A stretch of DNA of 64,000 nt. It comes from Verrucomicrobiaceae bacterium (lineage in GTDB: Bacteria > Verrucomicrobiota > Verrucomicrobiia > Verrucomicrobiales > Verrucomicrobiaceae). Below the pieces are notes generated by a model. The model saw nothing but the letters and a program-made list of their open reading frames with translations. It made no database searches and was not told the DNA's origin. The DNA lies in NCBI GenBank assembly GCA_016795365.1, contig JAEUHN010000017.1, forward strand, positions 124,001 to 188,000. Reading direction: 5' to 3'. Positions 37,801-55,147 of this stretch are shown here, piece after piece. Positions within the stretch are counted from its first letter, which is position 1. Each line of letters starts with the position of its first letter. The translations under genes were made by a program, and so were the position numbers.

Positions 37801-40800
37801 GCAGCTACGTGGTGGTTGAAACTCAGCCTGCTGGTTATCTCAATGTGACCGATGTGGACAGCACCACGCCAGGCGATGATGCGGCCAACTCCAGCACCAC
37901 GGACAATCGCATTCCTGTGGCCGTGAATGCGGGTGAGACCGATAATGGCAACGATTTCATCGAAGAGCAGCCTGGTGTCATCAGCGGTTCGGTCTTTGCT
38001 GACACGAACAATGACAACACTGGCGACACAGGCATCTCTGGTGTCACCGTCACGCTCTTCACTGATCCGAATGGCGACGGCAATCCTGCTGATGGCGCAC
38101 AGGTCGGTTCACCGGCGACGACGGCCGCCAATGGCAGCTACAGTTTCACTAACCTTGCTCCAGGCAGCTATGTGGTCGTGGAAACCCAGCCCTCGGGCTA
38201 TCTCAACGTGACCGATGTGGACAGCACCACGCCAGGCGATGATGCGGCCAACTCCAGCACCACGGACAATCGCATTCCTGTGGCCGTGAATGCGGGCGAG
38301 ACAGACAATGGCAATGATTTCATCGAAGAACTGCCCGGCGTCATCAGCGGCTCCGTGCTGGCCGATACGAACAATGATAACACTGGCGACACGGGCATCT
38401 CCGGCGTGACGGTGACGCTGTTCACCGATCCAAATGGCGACGGTGATCCCACCGATGGTGCGCCGGTCGGTTCACCGGCGACCACCGCCATCAATGGCAG
38501 CTACAGCTTCACCAACCTCGCTCCTGGCAGCTATGTGGTGGTGGAAACTCAGCCCGCTGGCTATCTCACACTCAGCGATGGCGACTCTACCACACCGGGT
38601 GACGACGTGGCCAATGCCAGCACTACGGACAACCGCATCCCTGTCACCGTGAATGCCGGGGAAACAGACACGGGCAATGATTTTATCGAGAATCAACCCG
38701 GCACGATCTCCGGCAACGTCTATGTTGACCTCGATAATGACAACATTGCGGACCAGGGGCTCCAGGGTGTGGTGCTCACGCTGATGACAGACCCCAATGG
38801 CGATGGCAACCCCGCCGACGGCACCCAGGTGGGCTCCACCGTCACCACCGACGTCAACGGCTTCTACACCTTCACCAATCTGGCTCCTGGCAGCTATGTA
38901 GTCGTGGAGACCCAGCCTTCCGGCTATCTCACTGTCAGCGATGGCGACTCCACATCGCCTGGTGATGATGTGGCCAATGCCAGCACTACGGACAACCGCG
39001 TTGCCGTAGCCATCACCGCGGGTGAGACGGACACAGGCAATGACTTCCTGGAAGAGAACCCCGGCGTTATCAGCGGCTCCGTGCTGGCTGATACGAACAA
39101 CGATGACGACGGCGACGTGGGCATCCAAGGCGTGACGATCACCCTCTTCACCGATCCAAACGGCGACGGGAATCCCGCGGACGGCGTCCAGGTGGGCAGC
39201 CCCATCACGACGAACTCCTCGGGCGACTACACTTTCACTGGCCTGCCGCCGGGTAATTATGTGGTCGTGGAGACCCAGCCCTCTGGATACCTCACGGTCA
39301 GCGATGGCGACAGCACGAATGGGGGAGATGATCTCGCGAATGCCAGCATCACCGATAACCGCATCCCCGTGGGCCTTGATGGCGGCGAAAACGATACGGG
39401 GAATGAGTTCATCGAAGAGCAGCCTGGTGTCATCAGCGGCTCCGTGCTGGCCGATACGAACAATGACAACACCGGAGACACAGGCATCTCTGGTGTCACC
39501 GTCACGCTCTTCACTGATCCGAATGGCGATGGCGATCCAGCCGATGGTGCACAGGTAGGCTCGCCGGCGACGACGGCCGCCAATGGCAGCTACAGCTTCA
39601 CTAACCTGCCCCCCGGCAACTACTTGGTCGTGGAGACCCAGCCCTCGGGTTATCTCAATGTGACCGATGTGGACAGCACCACGCCAGGCGATGATGCGGC
39701 CAACTCCAGCACCACGGACAACCGCATCCCTGCGGCCGTGAATGCGGGCGAGACAGACAATGGCAATGACTTCATCGAAGAACTGCCCGGCGTCATAAGC
39801 GGCTCGGTGCTGGCCGATACGAACAATGACAACACCGGAGACACAGGCATCTCTGGTGTCACCGTCACGCTCTTTACTGATCCGAATGGCGACGGCAATC
39901 CAGCCGATGGTGCGCCGGTCGGTTCACCAGCGACGACTGCTGCCAATGGCAGCTACAGCTTCACCAATCTGGCTCCTGGCAGCTATATAGTCGTGGAGAC
40001 CCAGCCCGCCGGTTATCTCGATGTGACCGACGTGGACAGCACCACGCCAGGCGATGATGCGGCCAACTCCAGCGCTGCGGACAACCGCATCCCTGTGGCC
40101 GTGAATGCGGGCGAGACAGACGATGGCAATGATTTCATCGAGGAGCAGCCCGGTGTCATCAGCGGTTCGGTCCTTGCTGACACCAACAATGACAACACTG
40201 GCGACACAGGCCTGTCCAGTGTGACGGTGACGCTCTTCACCGATCCGAATGGTGACGGCGACCCAGCCGATGGCGCACAGGTTGGTTCACCAGCGATGAC
40301 TGCCGCCAATGGCAGCTACAGCTTCACCAATCTTGCTCCGGGCAGCTACGTCGTGGTGGAAACCCAGCCCGCAGGTTATTTCACCATTACCGATGTGGAC
40401 AGCACCACGCCAGGCGATGATGTGGCCAACTCCAGCACCACGGACAATCGCATTCCCGTGGGTATCAGCGCCAGTGAAAGCGATACTGGCAATGATTTCA
40501 TCGAAGAACAGCCTGGTATCATCACGGGCTCCGTATTGGCCGATGCGGATAATGACAACGATGGCGACACGCCGATTGTCGGTGTTGTGCTCACGCTTGT
40601 CGATAGCAGCGGCAATCCTGTCGATGGCGATCCGAACACTTCAGGTGTGCAGCCCATTACGACTACGACCCAGCCGGACGGCACCTACACCTTCCTTGAT
40701 GTGCCCCCCGGCACGTATGGTGTGAAGGAAACCCAGCCAAGCGGTTACCTGGATGTGACTGACAGTGATGGCGGCGATCCAAGCGAAGTGCGTCCAATCA

Positions 40801-43800
40801 ATGTCGTGGCAGGAGCCACCACCAACGGGGTGGACTTCGTTGAAGAACTGCCTGGCGCGATCAGCGGCTCAGTGCTGGCCGATGCGGACAATGACGATGA
40901 TGGCGACTCCGGCATCGCTGGCGCTACCGTCACGCTCTTCACCGACCCGAACGGCGATGGCAATCCTGCCGATGGCACCCAGGTAGGGTCACCGGCTACG
41001 ACGCCCGCGAATGGCAGCTACAGTTTCACCAACCTTGCCCCTGGTAGCTATGTGGTCGTGGAGACCCAGCCTGCGGGTTATCTCAATGTGACGGACCTGG
41101 ACAGCACCTCGCCCGGCGATGACGTGGCGAACTCCAGCACTTCAGACAACCGTATTCCCGTGGCCATCAGCGCTGGCGAAAGCGATACGGGCAATGACTT
41201 CATCGAAGAGCTCCCCGGCGTCATCACTGGCACCGTGCTGGCCGATGTGGATAATGACAACGACGGCGATGATCCGATCCCGTCTGTCACGCTAACTCTC
41301 GTCGATAGCAGCGGAAGTCCGGTGGACGGCGATCCGAATACGGCTGGCGTGCAACCCATCACGACTACAACTCAGCCGGACGGCACCTACACCTTTACCA
41401 ACATTCCTCCCGGAACTTATGGTGTGAAGGAAACCCAGCCTCCTGGATACCTCAATGTCTCGGATAGCGATGGCGGCAATCCAAGCGAGGTCCGTCCGAT
41501 CAATGTGGTGGCAGGCACCACCACCAGCGGTGTTGACTTTATTGAGGAAGAGCCCGGCACCATCAGCGGCACCGTTCTGGCCGACACCGATAACGACGAT
41601 TCCGGCGACGCACCTCTGGCGAATGTGACACTCACCCTCGTCGATCCAAGTGGCAACCCCGTCGATGGCGATCCCAACACGTCCGGCGTGCAGCCCATCA
41701 CCACGGTCACACAACCCGACGGCACTTACATCTTCACCAATGTCCCACCTGGAACTTATGGTGTGTTGGAAACCCAGCCGAATGGTTATAACAGTCTCAG
41801 CGATATCGATGGTGGCGACCCGAATGAGGTGCGCCCGATCCTGGTCACCGCTGGCGGCGACACCACGGGCATCGACTTCGTGGAGGAGCAGCCGGCTGTG
41901 ATTGCGGGCCGCGTCCTCAATGACACGGATGGCGATGGCGACGGCGATGCTGCCATTTCTGGCACGGTCATCACACTCTACACCGATCCGAACGGCGATG
42001 GCGATCCGACCGATGGTGTCATCTTGGGCTCCCCAGTGACCACGAATGCGAACGGTGCCTACACCTTCTCCAACCTCGATCCAGGCAGCTATGTGGTGAT
42101 CGAGACGCAGCCCACCGGCTTCCTTACCATGTCTGATGGCGACTCCACCACAGACACCGCAGGCAGCCCGGCCGATGCCGCGAACAGCAGCCTCACGGAC
42201 AACCGCATCGCGGTGAACGCCAAGGCGGGCGAGACGGACAATGGTAACGACTTCATTGAGGCCGTGCCCGCCACGATTGGTGACTTCATCTTCCACGACT
42301 TGAACCGCAATGGAGTTCAGGACGCTGGCGAGCCTGGTGTAGAGGGTGTGACCGTTACGCTTTATGACGCTGCAGGCACCACAGTGATCAGCTCGACGAC
42401 GACCAATGGCTTGGGTCGCTATGAGTTTGCCGATCTCAACCCCGGTGACTATCGCGTGGGTGTTCCGCTCTCGTTGACCAATGGAGATCTGCTGTCCCCT
42501 AGCGACGTGGGTAGCGACCTCGCCGACAGCGATGCAAACCCGGCCACTGGCCTCACCGCTGTTTACAACCTTCTGCCCGCTGAAAACGACGCCACGGCTG
42601 ACGTCGGTTACTACTCGCCCAAGGGCAGCATCGGCTCCCTTGTGTGGAAGGATCTGAACCGCGATGGCGTGCAGCAGATCGGTGAGCCTGGCATCGAGAA
42701 CATCACCGTCACCCTCTACGATGGCTCTGGCGTTGCCATCGGTTCCACGGTCACAGATGCCCTTGGCTACTACAACTTCCGCGACCTCGATCCTGGCACT
42801 TACAGCATTGGTGTGCCTGCCACACTGGTGGAGGGCTGCATCCTCACTTCACCTGATCAGGGTGGGAATGACAACGGGGACAGTGACGCGATCGTGGCCA
42901 CCGGCCGCACGCCGAACTTCACGCTCGGCATCGGCGAGAACAGCGACACTGTGGACATTGGCTTCCTCAATCCGCTGGGCCGCATCGGTGACTTCGTGTG
43001 GATGGATTTGAATCGTGACTTCCAGCAGAACCTCGGCGAGCCGGGCATCGGTGACGTGACCGTTGTGCTCTACAATGCCGCAGATGTGGCCGTGGGCACC
43101 ACCACGACAAATGGCACGGGCTTCTACGAGTTCGTCAATCTCCAGCCCGGCACCTACAGCGTCGGCTTCCCTACCACCCTGCCCAATGGTGTCGTGCTCA
43201 CGGACTCGCAGCAGGGTGCTGCCGCCACGGACAGTAATCCTAACCCTACCACAGGTCGCACAGCGAATGTGACGATCGGCCAGGCGGAGACGAATGTGAC
43301 CATCGATGCAGGCTATATCTCGCCCTTCGCCAGCATCGGTCAGTTTGTCTGGCGTGACCTCGACCGTGACGGTCGTCAGGACGCAGGCGAACCGGGCATC
43401 GGAGGCGTGCCAGTCAATCTTTACAATGATCTCGGGGTGCTCGTGGGCACCACCACCACGGATAGCCTGGGCTACTTCCACTTCACCATGCTACAGCCCG
43501 GCACCTACCATGTCAGCTTCCCCACCAGCCTGGGCAATCAGGACGTGCTCACTGCGGCAGATGCCGGCGGTGACACGCTGGACAGTGATGCTGATACGAC
43601 CACGGGCCACACGCCAGTCGTGGCGCTCAGTGCTGGTCAAAATTACGTCGATTACGCCGCCGGCTACGTCTCGCCGCTTGGCAGCATCGGTGACTTCGTT
43701 TTCATGGATCTGAATGAAGACGGCATCCAGGATCCGAACGAGCCGGGCATCTCCGGTGTCACGGTGAATCTGGTCAATGGCAGCGGCACCGTGATCGGCA

Positions 43801-46800
43801 CCACCACCACGAATGCCACGGGTCGCTACGTGTTCATGGACTTGCAGCCCGGCACTTACGCAGTGCAGTTCCCCACTTCGATCCAGGGCGGCAGCATGGC
43901 TTTGACCAAGCTGGACATTGGCAGCAATGACGAACAGGACAGTGATGCCAGCCAGTCCAGCGGCAAGACTGCCAACCTCACCCTCGCCAGCGGCGAGTCT
44001 ATTACGAGTCTCGACGCCGGCTATGTGCCGAACTTCGGCAGCATCGGTGACCGCGTCTTCGCTGATCTCGACCGCGATGGCGTGCAGGATTCCGATGAGC
44101 CGGGCATCCAAGGTGTAACGGTTACGCTGCTGGATGACAATGGGGACCCTGTGGGCACCACTACGACTGACGCTGGCGGCTACTACCACTTCACTGGCTT
44201 ACAGCCTGGCGACTATGTTGTGCAGTTCCCGCTCAGCCTGCCTAATGGCACAGTGCTGTCCACGCCTGCACAGGGCGGCGATCCGGCCAAGGACAGCGAT
44301 CCATCCACTACAACGGGACGCAGCGCCGTCGTTGCGGTGACTGCCTCCAGTAACATTACCGATGTGGACGCTGGTTACCTTGCGCCACAGGCCAGCATCG
44401 GTGACTTCGTATGGAAGGACTTGAATCGCAACGGCGTGCAGGATCCTGGGGAACCTGGCATCGAAGGCGTCACCGTCACGCTGCGTAATAGCACCGGCAG
44501 TGCCATCGGCACTACGTCCACGGATGCGACTGGCCACTACAGCTTCACGGACCTCGCTCCAGGCGACTATTCGCTCTCCTTCCCCATCACATTCACCGGC
44601 GGTCTCGTGCTCGGCACCGCTGACCAGGGTGCCGACGGCGCGGATAGCGATCCTGACAAGACCACCGGTTTCACCATCACCACAACGCTTGCGATGGGCG
44701 AGAATGACGTTTCATGGGATGCCGCCTACCTGAGCCCGCTAGGCAGCATCGGCGACTTCGTTTGGAACGATCTCGACCGTGATGGGGTGCAAGATTCGGG
44801 TGAACCAGGCATTGCTGGTATCGCCGTCACCTTGCTCAACAGCACGGGTGATCCGATCGGCACCACCACCACGGATTCCACCGGTCACTTCGTCTTCCCT
44901 GATCTGCTCCCCGGCGACTATGCCCTGCAGTTCCCGGTCACACTGCCTGATGGTCGGGTGCTGTCGCCGACCACTGGCGGCACCAGCTCTACCAACAGCG
45001 ATCCGGACACAGGCACCGGCGTCACGCCGACTATTACGCTCACGTCGGGTCAAACCAATACCGACCTCGATGCCGGCTACTACTCGCCGCTCGGCAGCGT
45101 GGGTGACCGCGTGTGGCTCGACCTCGATCAGGACGGAGCACAGGATCCCGGTGAACCTGGCATTCAGGGTGTGACTGTCACCTTGCTCAACAGCAGCGGC
45201 ACTTCCCTGGGCACTACTACCACCGCTGCCTCCGGCCACTACCTCTTCACCGACCTACAGCCGGGAACTTACTCGGTGGCCTTCCCCACCTCGCTCTCCG
45301 ATGGACGCCTGCTCAGCAGTCCCGATCAGGCTGCGGGTGACGATGCGTTGGACAGCGACGCGAATGTGAGCACGGGCAAGACGGTGCCCTTCACTCTCGC
45401 GACTGCCGAGAACAAGACCACGATGGACGCTGGCTTCTACTCGCCGGACAGCAGCATTGGTGATTTCGTCTGGCGCGATTTGGACCGCGATGGTGTGCAG
45501 GATCCAGGCGAACCTGGCATCCAGGGTGTGCTCGTTACTTTGTATGACAGCCTCGGTGCGCCGGTCGGCACCACCATCACCGATGCCACCGGCCATTTCG
45601 CATTCACCGGCCTGAAGCCTGGCGATTACACACTCGGCTTCCCCACCACGCTTGGCGCTGGACTCGCCCTCAGCACGCCAGATCAGGCCAGCGATTCTTC
45701 GGACAGCGACCCTTCCACCACCACGGGCCGCACTCCGGTGATCACGCTCACTGCTGGTCAGCACATCGATACGACCGACGCGGGCTACAACAATCCGCTC
45801 GCTTCGATCAGCAACTTCGTGTGGAACGACACCGACCGCGATGGCACCCAGGACTCTGGCGAGCAAGGCATCCAGGGCGTGACGGTCACCCTGCTCAACA
45901 GCAGTGGCACGGCGATTGGTTCCACCACGACAGACGCCAGCGGCTTCTACAGCTTTGTCGATCTCCAGCCCGGAACCTACAAGGTGAGCTTCCCGGCTTC
46001 GCTCAACAGTGGTGCCCTCGTGCTGACCATGGCGGACCAAGGCCTCGACAGCGCCGACAGTGATGCAGACAAGACTACCGGCATCACCGCCAGCCTCACG
46101 CTAGTGGCTGGTCAGAATGATGACAGCATCGACGCTGGCTACGTCTCGCCACGCGGCAGCATTGGTGACTTCGTCTTCGCTGATTTGGATCGCGACGGGG
46201 TCCAAGATCCAGGTGAACCGGGCATCGCTGGGATGACGGTGACGCTGCTCGACAGCTCGGGCACACCGCTTGGCACCACCATCACGGACGGCACCGGACG
46301 CTATGTGTTCTCCGATCTCGCTCCGGGAAGCTACGCGGTTCAGTTCCCTGTGACTCTGCCTGGTGGCAGCGTGCTCGGCATGCCGGGCCAGGGCACTGAT
46401 CCGGCCAAGGACAGTGATCCGGACTCGACTACGGGCAAGACGACACCGATTACCCTTACGGAAGGCCAGATCGTCACCTCCGTGGACGCTGGCTACACCA
46501 ACCCGCTCGCCAGCATTGGCGACCGCGTGTGGATGGACGTCAACCGTGACGGTATCCAGCAGCCCGGCGAGCCTGGCATCTCGGGTGTTCCTGTGACCTT
46601 GTATAACAGCTCTGGCACTGCCGTGGGCACGGACGTGACCGATGGCGAGGGCTACTACACCTTCCTTGGTCTCCAGCCAGGCAGTTACTCCATTGGCTTC
46701 CCTGCCACGCAGGGCGGACTGGTGCTCACGGGTGCTGACCTCGGCACCGAATCGACCGACAGCGATGCGAACGTGGCCACCGGTCGCACCGGCACGATCG

Positions 46801-49800
46801 CCCTGGCCGCTGGTCAAACTTATACCGACGCCGACGCGGGCTACGTCTCGCCGCTCGCAAGTGTGGGTGACTTTGTGTGGCTCGACCTCGATCGTGACGG
46901 CACGCAGGACCCGGGTGAACCCGGCATCGCAGGTGTTACTGTCACGCTGTTGGATTCCGCCGGTTCTCCGGTGGGCACTACCGTGACAGATGCGACAGGC
47001 CACTACCTCTTCGGCAGCCTGCAGCCCGGCACTTACAGCATCGAATTCCCGCTCAATACGCAGCCCGGATACGTGCTTGCCACGCCTGATCAGGGCGGAG
47101 ATGAAGCGAAGGATAGCGATGCAAGCCCGACGACGGGCCGCACCCCGGGCTTCACACTCACTGGCGGTGTGAACCAGCTCGACATCGACACGGCCTACAC
47201 CTCACCTTTCGCCAGCCTGGGCAACTTCGTTTGGCATGACCTCAACCGCGATGGCGTGCAGCAGCCCGGAGAGCCCGGCATCGCCAACGTGACCGTGACG
47301 CTCTTCAACGCTGCCGGCACTGCCATTGGCACTGATGTCACGGATGCCACTGGCTTCTATAGCTTCGTCGATCTCCAGCCCGGTGAATACTACATCGGCG
47401 TGCCCACCACGATGCCCGACGGCCTCGCCCTGGGCACTCAGAACGTGGGTGATGATGCCCTGGACAGCGATGTCTCTCCGCTCACCGCACGCTCGGCACT
47501 CACCACGTTGACGGCAGGTGAAAACGACATCTCCATGGACGTTGCCTACGTGACACCGTTCGGCAGTATCGGCGACCGCGTCTGGCGCGACATCGACCGC
47601 GATGGTATCCAGGATGCGGGTGAGCCAGGAATCTCGAACGTGCGCGTGACGCTTTACGACAGCACCGGCACGGCGATCGGCACGGATGTCACTGACGGGC
47701 TCGGCTACTACAGCTTCACCGATCTCCAGCCCGGCACCTACACCATTGGCTTCCCAACGGAACTTGCTGACGGCGCATTGATCGGTCTCCAGGATCAAGG
47801 CACTGATGACAAGGACAGCGATCCAAGTGCTACCACTGGACGCACTGCCACCATCACGCTCACCGCTGGTCAAGCGGTGACCACCGTAGACGCCGCCTAC
47901 ATCAATCCACCGCTCAGCCTGGGCAACAGCGTCTGGCTTGATCAAGATCATGATGGCGTGCAGGACCTCGGCGAGCCCGGCATCCAGGGCGCGAAGGTGG
48001 AACTCTTCCTGGCGAACATGACGCCCGCCCGCGACTACGAAGGCACGCTCGTGCCCTCGCAGACCACCGGCACGGACGGCCTGTATATGTTCCCGAACCT
48101 TGCCCCCGGCGACTATATCGTGCGCGTCACGCCTCCCGCCAGCTCCGGTCTCAAGCCAACCACAGGCGGTGCTGATCCTGACAACGACAACAACAAGGAC
48201 AGCCACGGCGTGGAAATGATCGGCGAGAGCTACGTGCAGACCCTGCCCGTTACGCTGGCAAATAACAGCGAGCCTGTCACCGACGGCGACGTGGATACCA
48301 ACACCAACCTCAGCGTGGACATTGGCTTCTACTATCCGAAGTATGACCTCGCGTTGCGCAAGTCCCTGCCCTCCACCCAGGCCAATCCGATCAAGGCGGG
48401 CAGCAAGGTGACCTTCGCCATCGAAGTCTTCAACCAGGGTGACATTGCTGTGAACAACGTCAGCCTTGTGGACTATACGCCCACCGGCCTCGTGCTTGAT
48501 CCCGCGCTAAGCCCTAACTGGACTGCGCAAACCAATGGCTGGGCCACGGGCCTCATCATCAACCCGATCGCCCCCGGCAAGTCCGCCGTGGTCACGATCA
48601 CTTACAACGTGGCTCTGAGTGCCGAAGGCCAGACGCTGCACAACTTTGCCGAAGTCACCGGTGCCAAGGATCCCGACGGTGCTGTGATCGCGGACGTGGA
48701 CAGCACATTCGACGCCAGCCCGTCCAATGACGGACTCGTCACCAATGACGAACTCTACAACAATAACGGTGATGAAGACGACCACGACGGTGGCGATATC
48801 GTGATCTTGCCTCCGGGCGTCTGGGACCTCGCTCTGCGCAAGTCCCTCGCCAACGGCCAGTCGCTCGCTGTCAACCCCGGCGACAGCGTGACCTATAATA
48901 TCGAGGTCTTCAACCAAGGCGGCGAGCCAGCCTACAATGTGAAGGTCGTGGACTATATCCCAGCCCAGATGACCCTGGCTGATCTGCGCTGGAGCAGCGG
49001 CACGGGCAACACGGCCACTACCACTCTCAATCAAGCGCTCCAGCCCGGCACCAGCGTGGTGCTGCCGATCATCCTGAGGCTCAACAGCTCCGTTGTCGGA
49101 CCTCTCGATGTGGGCAATGCCGCCGAGATTCAGTCCTTCGTCGATGTGAACGGTGGCACGCGCCCCGACACTGACAGCACGCCGGACAACATCGCCAGCA
49201 ATGACGGCCCGCAAACCGATGACGCCATCGGTAATGAAAACAGCGACCAGGATGACTTCGACGTCGCCATCGTGAAGGTGAATCCGCCGCAGGTCTTCGA
49301 TCTCGCGATGCGCAAGCGCCTTGCCGAAGGCCAGAACCGTAGCGTCGTCCGCGGCGGTCTGGTGACCTTTGACATCGAAGTCTTCAACCAGGGCAGCATC
49401 GCTGCCAGCAACGTGGTCGTAACCGACTACCTGCCCTCCACGCTCACGCTCGAAGATGGCAACTGGTTCCCCACCTTGCCCGGCCAGGTGGCAACGACGA
49501 TCTACGGTCCCGTGCTCCCCGGCCAGTCCGCTCACGTGACGCTCACCGCACGCTTGAGCAGCAATGCCACCTACAACGCCACGATCACCAACACCGCTGA
49601 AATCAGCGCCGCCTACGACGGCGCTGGCCTCGCGAAAATTGATGCCGACTCCGTGATGGACAATAACCCGACCAACAACGGTGCGGCCACGGATGATGCG
49701 ATCAGCGGTGAAAACGGTGACAAAGACAACACCGATCTAGCCACCTTCGTCGTGGCACCGCCGGGCGTCTTCGACCTCGCTCTGCGCACCACCCTTGCCA

Positions 49801-52800
49801 TCGGCCAGACCACAACGGTGAACGCAGGCGACTTCGTGTCCTACACGATCGAAGTCTTCAACCAGGGCAGCACCACCGCCCGTGCCATCCAGATCACGGA
49901 CTACATTCCTGCCGGTATGACCCTCGCGGATGCCAACTGGATCGACAATGGCAACGGAACCGCCACGGGCACCTTTGGAAGCTCGTTCGCCCTCGCTCCC
50001 GGTGCCAGCGCCCAGTTGCCATTGCGCCTCAGGGTGAACACAGGCACCGCCGCCAGCGAGCTGCGCAACCTGGCCGAAATCACCACCGCCCGTGATGCCG
50101 ACGGTAACGTCGTCACAGACATCGACAGCGTGATGGACAGCAACGCCGTCAACGATGGCGTGATGATCGACAATGAGATCAACAACGCGAACTTCGATGA
50201 AGACGACAGCGACTTCGCTCTCGTCACGGTTACTGCTCCTGGCCGTGCCGACCTCGCCTTGCGCAAGAGCCTGAAGCCCGGCCAAGTTTCCAGCGCCCGC
50301 GCTGGTGACAAGGTGGCCTACCGTATCGAGGTCTTCAATCAGGGCGTGCTTGCGGCGAGCGAGATCAAGGTAGTCGATTACATCCCGTCCAGCCTGACCT
50401 TCAGCGCCAGCGACAATCCTTTCTGGACTCTTGAGCAGCCTGGCCTCGCCAGCGTGGTCCTCAGCGGTCCGATCGCCGCCGGAGCCAGCGCCCAGATCGA
50501 TATCGTCCTCGCCGTGGCGGACAACGCCGTGACTGGATCCAATGTGAGCAATGGTGCCGAGATCGCCTCCTTCAAAGCCGCTGGCCCGAATGGCGTGATC
50601 ATCACCACCGATGCCGATAGCACGCCAGACTCTACCCCATCCAATGACGGACTGGCCACCAATGACGCCATCAATGGCGAAAACGGCGACCAGGACGATG
50701 CCGACAGTGAGGTCATTACCGTTCTTGCTCCTGAGCGCATCGACCTCGCGCTGCGCAAGACCTTGAAGACGGGCCAGAATCCGGTGCCAGCACCAGGCCA
50801 GACCGTGTGCTACACGATTGAGGTGTTCAATCAGTGTGGTCAGACGGTGACGGATATCGCGGTGTGCGATTACGTTCCTGCCGGACTGGAGCTTGTCGCT
50901 CCGTCCACGACCGAGTGGACCAGCATCTCTGGCAACATCGTGAGCTGTGTCATCCCTGGGCCTCTCGCTCCTGGCAGCAGCCAGGCCATCCAGATCTGCT
51001 TCAAGGTCGCTGACAATGCGGTGCCTGGAACGGTCATCAGCAACTGCGCTGAGATCTGCGCTGCCAAGGACGAGAAGGGTCAGCCTGCACTCGATGCAGA
51101 CAGCACCTTCGACGCCAACTCGGGCAACGACGGTCGTGTGAGCAACGACGCGATCAATGGTGAGGACTTCGATGAAGACGACCACGACTGTGAGAACATC
51201 ACAGTGGGTGAGTCGGCTCGCTTCGATCTCGCTCTCCAGAAGCGTCTGGCTTCGAACCAGATTGGCTCCGTGCGCCCTGGCGACTTGGTGACCTACTCGA
51301 TCGAGGTTTTCAACCAAGGCACCATCCCTGCTACGCAGGTGGGCATCGTGGATGTCTTGCCCGCAGGCTTCACCCTTGCGGATTCAGCGTGGGTATCGAT
51401 GCCTGGCGGCATGGCGCTGCGCAGCATCGCGGGTCCGATAGCGCCTGCCAGCAGCAGCGTTGTGAACATCACTTTGCGTGTCGGCAGCACCACTGGCAGT
51501 GCACAGAATTTCGCTGAGATTTTCTCGGCACGTAACGGCATCACCAATGTGGCCGTCAATGCGCTCTCGGGCGACGCGGACAGTCCTTATGACGTGAGCA
51601 CCACCAATGAGGGCACCATCGTCGATGATGAACTCAATGGTGCTCTGGGTGATCACGATAGCGCTGACATCGCAGTGATTGAAGTGCTGGCTGGTCCTAC
51701 CCTTGGTGACCGTGTTTGGGAAGATCGCAACGCCAATGGCATCCAGGATCCGAACGAGCAAGGCATCGGCGGTGTGACGGTGTATCTGCTCAATGGCTCC
51801 GGCACGCCTACCGGCCGCAGCACCACCACCGATGGCAATGGCTTCTACACCTTCACTGGTCTTGTGCCAGGTGACTACTGTGTGCAGTTCGATCTGCCAG
51901 CTGGCTTCGCCTTCACCAAGGCTGAGCAGGGCTCTAATGACAACATCGACAGTGATGCTGATGTGATCACTGGCCGCACCGCGAAGACGACTATTGATTC
52001 GACCGAGACCGATGGTTCGTGGGATGCAGGCCTGTTCCGCCCGGCCAAACTGGGTGGCCTGGTATGGAACGATAGCAATGACAATGGTCTCGTGGATCAG
52101 GGTGAGGCCGGCATCGAAGGTATCAGCGTCCAGCTCTGCCTGCTCAATGGCACGGTGGTGGCCACGACCACGACAGATGTGGATGGCACCTACGAGTTTG
52201 CCAACCTGCCTGCTTCTCTCTACCGCGTGAAGATCAATACGCCTCCATCGAGCGCACCTGTCTCATCGTCTAACACCGATCTGGCTGACAACAACCAGCC
52301 GGGCGATGACAACGGCAATCAGAATGGTGCTGGTGCTCCTGCGAAGAGCCCGCTCATCACGCTGAGCTACGGTGAGACCGATACCACCATCGGCTTCGGC
52401 TTCGTGCCGACCGTCGGTGTGGGCAACCTGGTCTTCATTGATCACAATGGCAACGGCATCGCGGATGATGGCGAAGGTGTGAGCGGTGTGACTCTCCGTC
52501 TGTATCGTGACTCCGACACCGTGGGCACCAGTGCTCCAGTGGCGACGACCACGACGGGTGCTGGCGGTAGCTACCTCTTCAGCGGTCTGCGTCCGGGTGC
52601 CTACTTCATCCACATTCCTGCCACCCAGTTCGCCACCGGAGCACCTCTTGCGGGTCGTGTCTCGATCCCAGGCGCTGGCACCGACAACGGTGTGGATGAT
52701 CTGAACGATGAGAACGGCATTGATGTAAGCAGCACTGCTGCCACCGGCATCCGCTCGAATGTCTTCACCTTGTCGCCTGGTGCCGAGCCGATCGACGCGA

Positions 52801-54308
52801 CCAGCGAGACAGGCCTTCGTGCCGATGTGGATAATGCCAACGATGCGAACACCGATCTGACGATTGACTTCGGTTTCGTGGGTGCCAAGGCCTCCACCTT
52901 TGCCTACTGGCAGGCGATCAATGGCCTCAACGGTCAGAATCAGCCTGGTCAGAATGGTGACACAGATACCTACAACAACCTCGTTGAGTATGCACTGTGC
53001 ATGAATCCGGGCAGCGGCGTGCAGCCTTCGCCTGCCTTCTGCGTCCGTCTGAATGCGGGCACCAACCCTGTCGATGGCAAGGTGGAGGCCTTCTACACAC
53101 GCCGTGCTGGTGGTGGTCAGGGCGACATTACCTACACTCTGGAAATCCTGCGTGAGTTGAGCCAGTCGCCGAGCGGATGGGCCACCTCCACACTGACGCC
53201 AGTAGTCACCAACAATGGGGACGGAACCGAGAAGGTGTTCTACCCGAACCTTGAGCTGGAGCCTGTGTTTGCCAATGTCGGCCATGGCTTCGTCCGCCTT
53301 CGTGTGACCCTCACGGGCACCCCCAACACTGGTGTGACCGAGGTCTTCGGCTGGAACCGCCGCGCCTTCCCGGTGCAGTGTGAGAGCTTCGCGATGCCCT
53401 TCCTCCAGAAGGAGCTGTTCAGCGGTGTGGTTGACAGCATCAATGGCTCGATCATCAATGTGACGACATCGGCCGGATCGATCGCTCTCAACACGGCGGT
53501 CAATGCCAGCACGCCCAGCTTCCTGGAAGTCACGGACGGTGATAACGAAGGGCACAGATTTGAACTCAACGAAGCTGCCACCACGGCGACCATGCTGGTG
53601 ATTGATGCCGGCAATGGGCGCAACACACAGGCTGCTCTGCCAGGCAATCTGGTGGGTGACAAGATCGTGGTGCGTCCGCACTGGACCCTCAACAACTTGT
53701 TCCCGAAGACCTACTTCGTTGCTGGACCAGACTCCGTGACCGGTGACCGTCTGATGTTCTTCAACCCGGCTAACAATAACTACGACATCGTCTTCATGGC
53801 AACGGTCGCAGGTCAGCGGCGCTGGGTCCTTGAGGGTGATGCCACCCAGGCTGATGCGGGCAATCGCATCCTGGCTCCTGGCGAAGCTGGTGCCTTCTTT
53901 GTCCATCCGCGTAACAGTCCGATCACCATGGCGTTCGTCGGTATCGTTCGCGCTAACGACTTTGCCGTGCCGCTCAAGGTGGGCAGCAATTACCTCGGTG
54001 GTGGCTGGCCGATCGATCAGAGCCCAAATGATCGTGCGATGACCTTGGCCAATGGCTTCACCGGCGGGCGCTCCAGCACGACGGCTGACAACTTCCAACT
54101 GTGGAAGGGGGATACTGTCCTCCATGCGGAAGGCTATGATACGCACTTCCTCTACAACTTTGGGGGCTTCACCCACTGGCAGTCGGCTTCCAGCCCGGCT
54201 CTCCTCAGCGAGAATGACCTGAAGCTCTTCCGCGCCATGCGTGGAGTGGTCTTCACCAGTCGCGCAGGCAAGGCAAACTATGTGATGCCGATGCCCTGGA
54301 CACCTTGA
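34833..54308 (+). CDS. Giant secreted multi-repeat protein (SdrB-like and DUF11 repeats, TIGR02597-like C-terminus)
   Basis: One uninterrupted 6,491-codon frame, about 650 kDa. Order: signal peptide (about 1-31, ending KLSA); a unique N-terminal region opening VVEEYFIPFDEDD (to about 545); a DUF11-like domain (about 546-680); one SdrB-like domain (about 683-805); 14 SdrB-like repeats opening [IV]SGSVLADTNND (808-2480); 17 repeats opening SIGDFVWxDLDRDGVQDPGEPGI (2481-4502); 7 DUF11-type repeats opening DLALRKSL and containing IEVFNQG (4503-5621); 3 more SdrB-like domains (5622-6019); and a C-terminal part whose last ~310 residues (from about 6180: GVVDSINGSIINVTTSAG, LEVTDGDNEGHRFELNE, GDKIVVRPHWTLNNLFP) match TIGR02597. 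Asp/Asn-rich loops such as DPNGDGNPADG resemble the calcium-binding loops of SdrB domains. The protein is acidic and has only 18 cysteines. Presumably a long cell-surface fibre or adhesin; function is inferred. Confidence 0.93.
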   Translation: MSPKTTTLRNLVQALMVLLTFLGSLLKLSAAPAVVEEYFIPFDEDDILTASQHAYTEYAPLNCGLRGNTLSDPIDPIRSFLSFSVGEDNTVIVFDHWEDGYEPNPNVKTQSSTVIWGDGNLTNGVAPGYADDLLDRGDVVTIKNDVVSTTRLSVVDYDGGDRFVSTGALSVTRSAWATQSETLMAGATEVYSTAAWGTSFKLPVGENYVMLGNSLTDNRFEYTAATIQASQDSTVINIDADANGIAETSVTINRGQSHFVNGGLMQNATITSSKPVNVVVYTSDKCATYEADWYYLPPVSLYSSKYIGPVGTPTTGTTQIHVHNPNASSITVNWFTQGPASAGTLTIPANSAVSVTSPNLSGQRFASTGGENFIAFASISANATGGPSGSSNATSVWDWGYTLIPYSLISNQIISTSWSPGRDPNSSASPTANVSPIWLTADHLSNPTSTSTIKVCVDFNNNGGSLTDINGVTYDQSYNVTPLDSQIIYDPDGDQTAMKLWVCDGSDGVIAAAWGEDPNTAPTGAPSLDLGTTVLNGVPFSAGKNAALANDVNNNGLFDVGDTVRYTVVVRNAGSLPLAASTMHVSDVFPSALVYVAGSTLGQLGTNTPTSVPDDGSGTAFPLDGAGVYVPVAIPPFSEYTYTFDGIIPSFPPGSSIVNNATVNDDTTTRNPTATVTVESLATIGNFVWFDTDLDGFQDGTESGLSGVTVTLLDSSGNNVDSDPLTAGVQPTVTTTNGSGIYSFTVPGGSYIVQVTPPSGYSVSPQNQGVDATDSDISPTTFRTGVITIAAGATDNTNDAGFTQPSSISGSVLADTNNDNTGDTGISGVTVTLFTDPNGDGNPADGTQVGSPTTTATNGSYSFTNLPPGNYLVVETQPAGYLNVTDVDSTTPGDDVANSSTTDNRIPVGLVSNENDTGNDFIEEQPGVISGSVFADTNNDNAGDTGISSVTVTLFTDPNGDGDPADGAQVGSPATTAANGSYSFTNLAPGSYVVVETQPAGYLNVTDVDSTTPGDDAANSSTTDNRIPVAVNAGETDNGNDFIEEQPGVISGSVFADTNNDNTGDTGISGVTVTLFTDPNGDGNPADGAQVGSPATTAANGSYSFTNLAPGSYVVVETQPSGYLNVTDVDSTTPGDDAANSSTTDNRIPVAVNAGETDNGNDFIEELPGVISGSVLADTNNDNTGDTGISGVTVTLFTDPNGDGDPTDGAPVGSPATTAINGSYSFTNLAPGSYVVVETQPAGYLTLSDGDSTTPGDDVANASTTDNRIPVTVNAGETDTGNDFIENQPGTISGNVYVDLDNDNIADQGLQGVVLTLMTDPNGDGNPADGTQVGSTVTTDVNGFYTFTNLAPGSYVVVETQPSGYLTVSDGDSTSPGDDVANASTTDNRVAVAITAGETDTGNDFLEENPGVISGSVLADTNNDDDGDVGIQGVTITLFTDPNGDGNPADGVQVGSPITTNSSGDYTFTGLPPGNYVVVETQPSGYLTVSDGDSTNGGDDLANASITDNRIPVGLDGGENDTGNEFIEEQPGVISGSVLADTNNDNTGDTGISGVTVTLFTDPNGDGDPADGAQVGSPATTAANGSYSFTNLPPGNYLVVETQPSGYLNVTDVDSTTPGDDAANSSTTDNRIPAAVNAGETDNGNDFIEELPGVISGSVLADTNNDNTGDTGISGVTVTLFTDPNGDGNPADGAPVGSPATTAANGSYSFTNLAPGSYIVVETQPAGYLDVTDVDSTTPGDDAANSSAADNRIPVAVNAGETDDGNDFIEEQPGVISGSVLADTNNDNTGDTGLSSVTVTLFTDPNGDGDPADGAQVGSPAMTAANGSYSFTNLAPGSYVVVETQPAGYFTITDVDSTTPGDDVANSSTTDNRIPVGISASESDTGNDFIEEQPGIITGSVLADADNDNDGDTPIVGVVLTLVDSSGNPVDGDPNTSGVQPITTTTQPDGTYTFLDVPPGTYGVKETQPSGYLDVTDSDGGDPSEVRPINVVAGATTNGVDFVEELPGAISGSVLADADNDDDGDSGIAGATVTLFTDPNGDGNPADGTQVGSPATTPANGSYSFTNLAPGSYVVVETQPAGYLNVTDLDSTSPGDDVANSSTSDNRIPVAISAGESDTGNDFIEELPGVITGTVLADVDNDNDGDDPIPSVTLTLVDSSGSPVDGDPNTAGVQPITTTTQPDGTYTFTNIPPGTYGVKETQPPGYLNVSDSDGGNPSEVRPINVVAGTTTSGVDFIEEEPGTISGTVLADTDNDDSGDAPLANVTLTLVDPSGNPVDGDPNTSGVQPITTVTQPDGTYIFTNVPPGTYGVLETQPNGYNSLSDIDGGDPNEVRPILVTAGGDTTGIDFVEEQPAVIAGRVLNDTDGDGDGDAAISGTVITLYTDPNGDGDPTDGVILGSPVTTNANGAYTFSNLDPGSYVVIETQPTGFLTMSDGDSTTDTAGSPADAANSSLTDNRIAVNAKAGETDNGNDFIEAVPATIGDFIFHDLNRNGVQDAGEPGVEGVTVTLYDAAGTTVISSTTTNGLGRYEFADLNPGDYRVGVPLSLTNGDLLSPSDVGSDLADSDANPATGLTAVYNLLPAENDATADVGYYSPKGSIGSLVWKDLNRDGVQQIGEPGIENITVTLYDGSGVAIGSTVTDALGYYNFRDLDPGTYSIGVPATLVEGCILTSPDQGGNDNGDSDAIVATGRTPNFTLGIGENSDTVDIGFLNPLGRIGDFVWMDLNRDFQQNLGEPGIGDVTVVLYNAADVAVGTTTTNGTGFYEFVNLQPGTYSVGFPTTLPNGVVLTDSQQGAAATDSNPNPTTGRTANVTIGQAETNVTIDAGYISPFASIGQFVWRDLDRDGRQDAGEPGIGGVPVNLYNDLGVLVGTTTTDSLGYFHFTMLQPGTYHVSFPTSLGNQDVLTAADAGGDTLDSDADTTTGHTPVVALSAGQNYVDYAAGYVSPLGSIGDFVFMDLNEDGIQDPNEPGISGVTVNLVNGSGTVIGTTTTNATGRYVFMDLQPGTYAVQFPTSIQGGSMALTKLDIGSNDEQDSDASQSSGKTANLTLASGESITSLDAGYVPNFGSIGDRVFADLDRDGVQDSDEPGIQGVTVTLLDDNGDPVGTTTTDAGGYYHFTGLQPGDYVVQFPLSLPNGTVLSTPAQGGDPAKDSDPSTTTGRSAVVAVTASSNITDVDAGYLAPQASIGDFVWKDLNRNGVQDPGEPGIEGVTVTLRNSTGSAIGTTSTDATGHYSFTDLAPGDYSLSFPITFTGGLVLGTADQGADGADSDPDKTTGFTITTTLAMGENDVSWDAAYLSPLGSIGDFVWNDLDRDGVQDSGEPGIAGIAVTLLNSTGDPIGTTTTDSTGHFVFPDLLPGDYALQFPVTLPDGRVLSPTTGGTSSTNSDPDTGTGVTPTITLTSGQTNTDLDAGYYSPLGSVGDRVWLDLDQDGAQDPGEPGIQGVTVTLLNSSGTSLGTTTTAASGHYLFTDLQPGTYSVAFPTSLSDGRLLSSPDQAAGDDALDSDANVSTGKTVPFTLATAENKTTMDAGFYSPDSSIGDFVWRDLDRDGVQDPGEPGIQGVLVTLYDSLGAPVGTTITDATGHFAFTGLKPGDYTLGFPTTLGAGLALSTPDQASDSSDSDPSTTTGRTPVITLTAGQHIDTTDAGYNNPLASISNFVWNDTDRDGTQDSGEQGIQGVTVTLLNSSGTAIGSTTTDASGFYSFVDLQPGTYKVSFPASLNSGALVLTMADQGLDSADSDADKTTGITASLTLVAGQNDDSIDAGYVSPRGSIGDFVFADLDRDGVQDPGEPGIAGMTVTLLDSSGTPLGTTITDGTGRYVFSDLAPGSYAVQFPVTLPGGSVLGMPGQGTDPAKDSDPDSTTGKTTPITLTEGQIVTSVDAGYTNPLASIGDRVWMDVNRDGIQQPGEPGISGVPVTLYNSSGTAVGTDVTDGEGYYTFLGLQPGSYSIGFPATQGGLVLTGADLGTESTDSDANVATGRTGTIALAAGQTYTDADAGYVSPLASVGDFVWLDLDRDGTQDPGEPGIAGVTVTLLDSAGSPVGTTVTDATGHYLFGSLQPGTYSIEFPLNTQPGYVLATPDQGGDEAKDSDASPTTGRTPGFTLTGGVNQLDIDTAYTSPFASLGNFVWHDLNRDGVQQPGEPGIANVTVTLFNAAGTAIGTDVTDATGFYSFVDLQPGEYYIGVPTTMPDGLALGTQNVGDDALDSDVSPLTARSALTTLTAGENDISMDVAYVTPFGSIGDRVWRDIDRDGIQDAGEPGISNVRVTLYDSTGTAIGTDVTDGLGYYSFTDLQPGTYTIGFPTELADGALIGLQDQGTDDKDSDPSATTGRTATITLTAGQAVTTVDAAYINPPLSLGNSVWLDQDHDGVQDLGEPGIQGAKVELFLANMTPARDYEGTLVPSQTTGTDGLYMFPNLAPGDYIVRVTPPASSGLKPTTGGADPDNDNNKDSHGVEMIGESYVQTLPVTLANNSEPVTDGDVDTNTNLSVDIGFYYPKYDLALRKSLPSTQANPIKAGSKVTFAIEVFNQGDIAVNNVSLVDYTPTGLVLDPALSPNWTAQTNGWATGLIINPIAPGKSAVVTITYNVALSAEGQTLHNFAEVTGAKDPDGAVIADVDSTFDASPSNDGLVTNDELYNNNGDEDDHDGGDIVILPPGVWDLALRKSLANGQSLAVNPGDSVTYNIEVFNQGGEPAYNVKVVDYIPAQMTLADLRWSSGTGNTATTTLNQALQPGTSVVLPIILRLNSSVVGPLDVGNAAEIQSFVDVNGGTRPDTDSTPDNIASNDGPQTDDAIGNENSDQDDFDVAIVKVNPPQVFDLAMRKRLAEGQNRSVVRGGLVTFDIEVFNQGSIAASNVVVTDYLPSTLTLEDGNWFPTLPGQVATTIYGPVLPGQSAHVTLTARLSSNATYNATITNTAEISAAYDGAGLAKIDADSVMDNNPTNNGAATDDAISGENGDKDNTDLATFVVAPPGVFDLALRTTLAIGQTTTVNAGDFVSYTIEVFNQGSTTARAIQITDYIPAGMTLADANWIDNGNGTATGTFGSSFALAPGASAQLPLRLRVNTGTAASELRNLAEITTARDADGNVVTDIDSVMDSNAVNDGVMIDNEINNANFDEDDSDFALVTVTAPGRADLALRKSLKPGQVSSARAGDKVAYRIEVFNQGVLAASEIKVVDYIPSSLTFSASDNPFWTLEQPGLASVVLSGPIAAGASAQIDIVLAVADNAVTGSNVSNGAEIASFKAAGPNGVIITTDADSTPDSTPSNDGLATNDAINGENGDQDDADSEVITVLAPERIDLALRKTLKTGQNPVPAPGQTVCYTIEVFNQCGQTVTDIAVCDYVPAGLELVAPSTTEWTSISGNIVSCVIPGPLAPGSSQAIQICFKVADNAVPGTVISNCAEICAAKDEKGQPALDADSTFDANSGNDGRVSNDAINGEDFDEDDHDCENITVGESARFDLALQKRLASNQIGSVRPGDLVTYSIEVFNQGTIPATQVGIVDVLPAGFTLADSAWVSMPGGMALRSIAGPIAPASSSVVNITLRVGSTTGSAQNFAEIFSARNGITNVAVNALSGDADSPYDVSTTNEGTIVDDELNGALGDHDSADIAVIEVLAGPTLGDRVWEDRNANGIQDPNEQGIGGVTVYLLNGSGTPTGRSTTTDGNGFYTFTGLVPGDYCVQFDLPAGFAFTKAEQGSNDNIDSDADVITGRTAKTTIDSTETDGSWDAGLFRPAKLGGLVWNDSNDNGLVDQGEAGIEGISVQLCLLNGTVVATTTTDVDGTYEFANLPASLYRVKINTPPSSAPVSSSNTDLADNNQPGDDNGNQNGAGAPAKSPLITLSYGETDTTIGFGFVPTVGVGNLVFIDHNGNGIADDGEGVSGVTLRLYRDSDTVGTSAPVATTTTGAGGSYLFSGLRPGAYFIHIPATQFATGAPLAGRVSIPGAGTDNGVDDLNDENGIDVSSTAATGIRSNVFTLSPGAEPIDATSETGLRADVDNANDANTDLTIDFGFVGAKASTFAYWQAINGLNGQNQPGQNGDTDTYNNLVEYALCMNPGSGVQPSPAFCVRLNAGTNPVDGKVEAFYTRRAGGGQGDITYTLEILRELSQSPSGWATSTLTPVVTNNGDGTEKVFYPNLELEPVFANVGHGFVRLRVTLTGTPNTGVTEVFGWNRRAFPVQCESFAMPFLQKELFSGVVDSINGSIINVTTSAGSIALNTAVNASTPSFLEVTDGDNEGHRFELNEAATTATMLVIDAGNGRNTQAALPGNLVGDKIVVRPHWTLNNLFPKTYFVAGPDSVTGDRLMFFNPANNNYDIVFMATVAGQRRWVLEGDATQADAGNRILAPGEAGAFFVHPRNSPITMAFVGIVRANDFAVPLKVGSNYLGGGWPIDQSPNDRAMTLANGFTGGRSSTTADNFQLWKGDTVLHAEGYDTHFLYNFGGFTHWQSASSPALLSENDLKLFRAMRGVVFTSRAGKANYVMPMPWTP
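37254..42272 (+). repeat. Array of 14 SdrB-like repeats, mostly 363-bp period
   Basis: The codon for the Ile of the repeat opening 'ISGS' recurs at 37254, 37617, 37980, 38343, 38706, 39069, 39432, 39795, 40158 and 40521, exactly 363 bp apart, then at 40860 (339), 41223 (363), 41562 (339) and 41901 (339). Units are 121 residues, or 113 in a shorter form with DPNTSGVQPITTTTQPDGTY. Units 2-4 and 7-9 are nearly identical at protein level and share long stretches of DNA; units 5-6 are more diverged. Confidence 0.93.
42273..48338 (+). repeat. Array of 17 SdrB-like repeats, second type (~351-357 bp)
   Basis: Units of about 117-119 residues opening with IGD(F/R)VW.DL(D/N)RDGVQ..GEPGI and ending in DAGY.(S/N)PL. 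Successive openings fall near 42276, 42627, 42981, 43332, 43683, 44040, 44394, 44745, 45096, 45453, 45804, 46158, 46512, 46860, 47214, 47565 and 47916. They are clearly more diverged from each other than the preceding array. The last unit is longer (about 142 residues). Confidence 0.9.
48339..51695 (+). repeat. Array of 7 DUF11-type repeats (~474-492 bp)
   Basis: Units of about 158-164 residues begin with (F/W/V)DLALRKSL and contain T(Y/F).IEVFNQG, (V/T)DY.PAGM, and an acidic end (DSTPDN..SNDG...DDAI..EN.D.DD.D). Starts are near 48339, 48816, 49290, 49764, 50241, 50733 and 51216. The sixth unit alone carries eight cysteines. Confidence 0.9.
51696..52889 (+). repeat. Three C-terminal SdrB-like domains
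   Basis: Three diverged SdrB-like units (openings LGDRVWEDRNANGIQDPNEQGI, LGGLVWNDSNDNGLVDQGEAGI and VGNLVFIDHNGNGIADDGEG) join the DUF11 array to the C-terminal region. Units one and two each carry a single Cys. Confidence 0.85.
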
Positions 54309-54354: not shown

Positions 54355-54424
54355 TTACCGGCAAAAGAGTTTAAGATAGCCCTTGTGTCTCATTTTGATT
54401 AAATATATATTTCCCATAACCAAT

Positions 54425-55147
54425 ATGAAAACAAACAGGAGATTCTCCTTCCTTGCCGCCCTTGGCCTCGCTTGTCTGGGGTTGGTTACCTCCTCGCAGG
54501 CGACCACCATCAACTGGGGCACCTACTTCTCGGCCACGACCTACTTGTTCGACTCCAACGGAGTGCCGCTGACCTCGGAGTATGTCTTTGAGTTGGGTTC
54601 GTTCGGCACCTTCATTCCTACTTCTGCGAACATGACCGACTGGCAGGCGAACTGGAAGCCATTCGATCGTGCGGTGGATACTGATGGGTGGATTCCTTCC
54701 ACCGGCACCGTGGGCTCAACAGCCACGCTGGAGACCGACTTCACGACTGACAACGCTACTTTGTCCCAGTCCAACACCTTCGCCCAGGGCGAGCAGGCCT
54801 ACATCTGGATCTACAAAGGCACTGCGGGCAATCCCAACTACTCCCCCGGTCTCGAATGGGCTCTGGTGACCAACAATTCTTCGGACTCCAATGTGGCAGA
54901 TGACTGGCTTTTCCCAGCTCCTTCGGGCCACGTGATCACCACTCTCGACTGGCGCATCGAAGACGCGACGTCATCGCCCTTCGGAGGTCTGAACGACACC
55001 CAATACGACGGATCGCACACATCCACGCCTCCGGCCTTCATCCTTCAGACGCACACAACGGCAACCATCCCAGAACCAGGAACCGGCTTGCTTCTGGGTC
55101 TCACCGCCCTGGGCCTGATTCGCAGGAAGCGCAGCGCCCGCGCCTAA
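54425..55147 (+). CDS. PEP-CTERM sorted secreted protein
   Basis: A 240-residue protein with signal peptide (MKTNRRFSFLAALGLACLGLVTSSQA), an Asn/Thr/Ser/Trp-rich beta-type body (NWGTYFSATTYLFDSNG opening) and a C-terminal PEP-CTERM signal: IPEPG, a hydrophobic helix (TGLLLGLTALGLI) and the basic end RRKRSARA. PEP-CTERM proteins are processed by exosortases and are often linked to exopolysaccharide or surface assembly. No exosortase gene is in the window. The body has no recognised family. It follows the giant gene by 116 bases on the same strand and may be cotranscribed or have its own promoter in the AT-rich stretch just upstream. The first in-frame TTG 14 codons earlier is less likely. Confidence 0.88.
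   Translation: MKTNRRFSFLAALGLACLGLVTSSQATTINWGTYFSATTYLFDSNGVPLTSEYVFELGSFGTFIPTSANMTDWQANWKPFDRAVDTDGWIPSTGTVGSTATLETDFTTDNATLSQSNTFAQGEQAYIWIYKGTAGNPNYSPGLEWALVTNNSSDSNVADDWLFPAPSGHVITTLDWRIEDATSSPFGGLNDTQYDGSHTSTPPAFILQTHTTATIPEPGTGLLLGLTALGLIRRKRSARA

Follow-up and report, generated by a model that had tools for sequence, protein, structure and literature searches.

How a single repeat of a very long bacterial stalk protein comes to hold eight cysteines, and which partners those cysteines might have, is the question raised by the window analysed here, a 64,000-nucleotide stretch of a Verrucomicrobiaceae genome (contig JAEUHN010000017.1, positions 124,001 to 188,000 of the forward strand). 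The repeat is the sixth of seven DUF11 units in a giant secreted, fibrillar-adhesin-like protein, and the gene directly upstream encodes a VKOR-DsbA-type oxidase, so that an enzyme and a candidate substrate appear side by side.

Layout of the giant protein

The giant protein (Table 1) runs from a signal-like start through an N-terminal domain and many SdrD_B-type repeats to the seven DUF11 units, followed by three SdrD_B repeats and a C-terminal region that resembles TIGR02597 and scores under that family's cut-off. Pfam recognises seven DUF11 stretches flanked by SdrD_B repeats, and we set the unit borders at the repeated motif DLALRK. An earlier, sequence-only reading had placed eight cysteines in the sixth of seven units, at 50733-51215; both the number and the place were confirmed, our borders falling within 6 bases of these. 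Eight of the protein's 18 cysteines do lie in 2.5% of its length, as that reading had calculated (161 of 6,491 residues), and the chance of finding at least eight of 18 in this stretch is 4e-9 (hypergeometric, for a fixed place). The accompanying description of the other six units as cysteine-free is correct for this genome but fails among relatives, where unit 5 has five cysteines in a member of the same genus and seven in another relative. Similarly, the picture of a cysteine-poor fibre holds for this lineage but not for two relatives with 46-47 cysteines in the longest ORF.

Table 1. Coordinates of the features discussed, in window numbering. Residues refer to the folded segment of unit 6, with residue 1 at base 50733.
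Feature	Position	Strand	Remarks
VKOR with thioredoxin-like (DsbA-type) part	33114-34799	+	561 aa; ends 33 bases before giant ORF
Giant secreted fibrillar-adhesin-like protein	34833-54308	+	6491 aa, 18 Cys
Four-Cys N-terminal domain	34923-36452	+	Cys 63, 286, 456, 503
Array of seven DUF11/CLIPPER units	48342-51698	+	aa 4504-5622; ~160 aa each
Unit 4	49770-50246	+	Thr in place of expected isopeptide Lys (K9)
Unit 5	50247-50738	+	0 Cys in window
Unit 6, eight-Cys CLIPPER unit	50739-51221	+	aa 5303-5463
K9, predicted isopeptide Lys	50757-50759	+	alignment; DCA pairs 9-46, 9-104; equivalent of K715 in 9IFR
Cys P1	50808-50810	+	residue 26, strand B; opposed to P5
Cys P2	50835-50837	+	residue 35, B-C turn
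Cys P3	50865-50867	+	residue 45, strand C, adjoins D46
D46, predicted catalytic Asp	50868-50870	+	alignment, 9IFR comparison, DCA
Cys P4	50946-50948	+	residue 72, strand D
Cys P5	50997-50999	+	residue 89, strand E
N104, predicted isopeptide Asn	51042-51044	+	alignment, 9IFR comparison, DCA
Cys P6	51045-51047	+	residue 105, strand F, adjoins N104
Cys P7	51057-51059	+	residue 109, strand F
Cys P8	51189-51191	+	residue 153, strand G, after Asp-rich loop
PEP-CTERM protein	54383-55147	+	downstream of giant gene

Unit 6 as a CLIPPER domain

In 2025, DUF11 was renamed CLIPPER, a domain of stalk proteins in which an isopeptide bond joins Lys to Asn, with a presumed catalytic Asp; the bond raises resistance to heat and proteases, and disulfides are predicted in 29.7% of isopeptide CLIPPER domains (PMC12617251). 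Taken alone, unit 6 scores 48.0 bits against DUF11 (PF01345), above the curated cut-off of 24.6. Its AlphaFold2 model, built from 28 aligned units (pLDDT 85.3), gave the CLIPPER crystal structure 9IFR as the first PDB match in Foldseek (E 1.4e-5), and VIA-align superposed the two over 116 aligned residues (Z 10.9, rmsd 3.0), a match tied with those to integrin, cohesin and pilin folds. The fold predicted by this model is a CnaA-like beta-sandwich. A PDB sequence search with the unit alignment returned nothing convincing (best E 0.16), and a joint model of units 5-7 resting on 4 sequences only (pLDDT 73.9, pTM 0.45) was left out of the pairing analysis. The residues of the isopeptide triad, K9, D46 and N104, are conserved in unit 6 and mutually coupled, and the spacing from Asp to Asn is 58, as in 9IFR. 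Unit 4 of the window, with Thr at the K9 site, probably lacks the isopeptide bond; unit 4 of the relatives has Lys there.

Unit 6 and 9IFR share family, fold, the Lys/Asp/Asn triad and a setting of tandem stalk repeats within a very long surface protein. They differ in their cysteines, 9IFR having one disulfide, within a tetrapeptide (CTTC) on the last strand, whereas the eight cysteines of unit 6 stand at other positions and are limited to one place in the array. Unlike 9IFR, moreover, unit 6 spans 160 residues, its F and G strands being separated by an Asp-rich extension that every unit of the array has. This F-G stretch (D.DS..D....N.G ... D.D..D) is invariant across the units at 48342-51698 and could possibly bind calcium.

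Such a density of cysteines is rare for the family. In a non-redundant set of 337 DUF11 domains from the phylum, drawn partly by similarity to unit 6, so that the fractions are descriptive, 77% have no cysteine, and those with at least five are solely units of this orthologous array. In the same sample cysteine is commonest at P4 (22 of 337 domains), at times accompanied by a partner some eight residues upstream.

Cysteine units in relatives

A search of 68 family genomes with unit 6 as query recovered this seven-unit array in eight distinct Verrucomicrobiota genomes, that of the window (G000) included; a ninth carrier, G333, is apparently a near-copy of G309. The cysteine-rich DUF11 variant is thus not private to this genome. 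A Cys-unit profile run against 387 genomes from the order matched unit 6 of all array carriers at E <= 1e-67, the best value outside the family being 3e-11, and a peptide-pattern scan of GTDB species genomes found only three relatives, all of them among those already recovered. Most of the genomes are metagenome assemblies, and G290 and G291 are 87% complete.

Unit 6 has between five and nine cysteines in every carrier and unit 5 has from none to seven (unit 6 and unit 5, respectively: G000, 8 and 0; G290, 7 and 5; G323, 8 and 2; G324, 8 and 2; G291, 9 and 7; G322, 6 and 1; G188, 5 and 0; G309, 7 and 1). With the exception of unit 7 of G291, units 1-4 and 7 are cysteine-free in all carriers, so cysteine content is kept by position. 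The cysteines of unit 5 fall mostly at the positions used in unit 6, and all five in the same-genus relative are at sites homologous to unit 6 cysteines; this graded content suggests that the absence of cysteine from unit 5 of the window is a secondary loss. In a tree built from 53 units, those numbered 1, 2, 3, 4, 5 and 7 each cluster by position across genera, as does unit 6 save for the long-branched copy of G291, which makes the array older than these genera.

Within the Cys units, P8 is the sole one of the eight cysteines found in all nine aligned units, P6 never occurs without P8 in relatives, and P3, P5 and P7 are all present wherever any one of them is. The set can nevertheless shift: unit 6 of G322, G188 and G309 keeps P6 and P8 and adds a cysteine near residue 58 and a CC pair in the F-G loop. 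Unit 6 of L008, L041 and L070 has its CC pair in a shortened F-G loop, the number of cysteines being kept while their positions have moved. Odd counts occur in eight of the 14 Cys-bearing homologous units, each of which must therefore have at least one thiol without a partner inside the unit. The sum over units 5 and 6 is even in six of eight genomes, a parity without significance.

Pairing of the cysteines

We collected 821 DUF11 matches and applied mean-field DCA to 356 sequences (effective number 291), from which Cys-rich sequences had been removed and in which every cysteine was masked. Pairs of the isopeptide triad came out near the top (46-104 at rank 2, 9-46 at rank 5), which validates the method. 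Residues 26 and 89, the sites of P1 and P5, ranked 4 of 6,441 residue pairs, and strands B and E are antiparallel in the register i+j=115. Given this covariation, a cross-strand disulfide between P1 and P5 is a well-supported prediction. For strands C and F, P3-P7 stands at rank 88 against rank 1134 for P3-P6, and the register of strands C and F (i+j 150-152) may speak for P3-P6 together with P7-P8. The columns of P8 were too gapped for the 356-sequence analysis, and a smaller test on 43 Cys-poor long units gave no clear F-G register. Two further disulfides among P3, P6, P7 and P8 are likely, with ambiguous partners. For P2-P4 the 356 sequences gave no covariation signal, leaving both cysteines without a supported partner, and the odd counts among relatives argue against full pairing everywhere. 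The suggestion of paired substitutions on neighbouring strands forming up to four disulfides is supported for P1 and P5, which covariation places directly opposite each other, but not for the full number.

On balance, we think it probable that unit 6 is a CLIPPER stalk domain held by two kinds of covalent lock. The first would be the isopeptide bond usual for the family, joining Lys9 to Asn104 with Asp46 as the catalyst; the second would be a set of disulfides that staple adjacent strands together on the outer sandwich faces, with P1-P5 tying strand B to strand E, and P3, P6, P7 and P8 linking C, F and G. As the penultimate unit of the CLIPPER array, near the C-terminal region, unit 6 would then probably serve as a mechanically rigid, protease-resistant link. 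One repeat of a long adhesin stalk would thus be singled out for candidate covalent stapling that is kept across genera and goes beyond the isopeptide bond of the family and, if the disulfides form, unit 6 is well placed to serve as a test case in the stabilisation of protein fibres.

Alternative roles for the cysteines

Some of the cysteines may instead stay free inside the domain and, after secretion, cross-link fibres to one another or to other surface proteins through air oxidation, unit 6 then acting as a covalent coupling point. We regard this, or such a coupling role in addition to the two locks, as possible, though we would sooner expect the contrary. The odd counts of the relatives fit it, as do the position of P2 in a turn, without a supported partner, and the single cysteine that two relatives have in nearly every SdrD_B repeat, whereas the P1-P5 pair suits a bond within the domain and the count in unit 6 of the window is even. 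A precedent exists in Chlamydia, whose Cys-rich envelope proteins, OmcB among them, form a disulfide cross-linked outer membrane complex (PMC6752827). OmcB and the Methanobacterium protein Mform_01534 (PMC10787695) are, by description, likewise Cys-rich, linked to DUF11 and placed in envelope or adhesion roles; they differ from the window protein, where just one of seven units is Cys-rich.

The sequence-only reading had taken unit 6 for the specific substrate of the VKOR-DsbA enzyme encoded next to it, which we now hold to be improbable. The gene itself is as described, lying directly before the giant gene and encoding a protein that matches VKOR (PF07884) at 33.3 bits (cut-off 27.5) and Thioredoxin_4 weakly, with the motifs CGGRC, CVVC and CSRC. 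In its VKOR domain and thioredoxin-like CxxC part it resembles bacterial VKOR-DsbA fusions, from which it differs by an extra C-terminal part, and it is the only VKOR-, DsbB- or DsbA-type protein found in this genome. The expected co-occurrence of Cys unit and oxidase, however, breaks down among the relatives. PF07884 is found in four of the 68 family genomes (G000, G235, G315 and G318), that is, in one of nine array carriers (G000 only) and three of 59 others, an overlap of at least one having a chance of ~0.44. Pfam-level searches in which the controls were detected revealed no DsbB, Thioredoxin_4 or DSBA in seven further carriers, and five of the carriers without VKOR or Dsb are 91-99% complete. 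Chlamydia, in contrast to these other carriers of the Cys unit, has DsbA and DsbB. Within Pfam-level detection, then, the Cys unit exists without any VKOR or Dsb system, and a link between VKOR-DsbA and unit 6 as a general rule is largely refuted.

The gene instead goes with the giant protein's N-terminal domain. Adjacency of VKOR to a giant gene is confined to the window and G315 (L081), where a VKOR-thioredoxin gene is directly followed by a giant ORF that shares 77% identity with the window protein in its N-terminal domain, on a contig that ends before any array. The four cysteines of this domain are shared by G000 and G315 and absent from the 14 other homologous sequences, one of which is a fragment that stops short of Cys 63. 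The pairing of VKOR and N-terminal domain in the two genomes goes back to a common ancestry and counts as a single event. Because VKOR and this four-cysteine N-terminal domain go together, the domain would be a better candidate substrate than unit 6. VKOR-DsbA may still act on unit 6 here, being the only recognised oxidase found in this genome, but the two are not a dedicated pairing and, judging from gene content, oxidation does not seem to depend on a neighbouring VKOR in general. The Cys module and the oxidase, joined in the sequence-only reading, are thereby separated. If the disulfides do form, the question becomes what, in place of the standard enzymes, oxidises the secreted thiols. One broader scheme, which we put forward as rather doubtful, is that position-fixed Cys modules (units 5-6, and the SdrD_B cysteines of two relatives) form disulfides both within and between fibres and are oxidised by some unrecognised enzyme or, outside the cell, by air, most of the genomes having no recognisable VKOR, DsbA or DsbB.

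Binding of a metal or cluster in place of disulfides is very unlikely. P3, P6, P7 and P8 do lie on strands C, F and G, and the Asp-rich loop adjoins P8, but both sheets contribute strands with cysteines, P6 and P7, four residues apart on the same strand, would by strand geometry be too far from each other for one site, there is no CxxC motif, and relatives hold the number of cysteines while the positions change. Neutral drift of cysteines in a redundant, functionless repeat would account for the graded presence of the same cysteines in unit 5 among relatives, but is scarcely credible given five to nine cysteines in unit 6 of every carrier in three genera, none in units 1-4, and P8 in every aligned Cys unit.

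Other features of the locus

Two further readings were rejected: an antisense ORF at 49737-51317 had no Pfam match and was taken as a composition effect, and a derivation from plasmids was looked for without a match. The array gene keeps the PEP-CTERM protein as its downstream neighbour in each of the five relatives for which this flank was examined (54-90% identity). Cys 6183 (53379-53381), which belongs to the TIGR02597-like C-terminal region, is present without exception in the carriers compared. In the giant proteins of G323 and G324 (L066, L077, L067 and L078), the single cysteine of the SdrD_B repeats stands at the same place in almost every repeat, within a motif like DGC.LT, forming a ladder of roughly 15 in succession at ~118 aa spacing; with one cysteine per repeat there is no pairing inside a repeat. 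A relic cysteine of this ladder is present in the window at 42837-42839.
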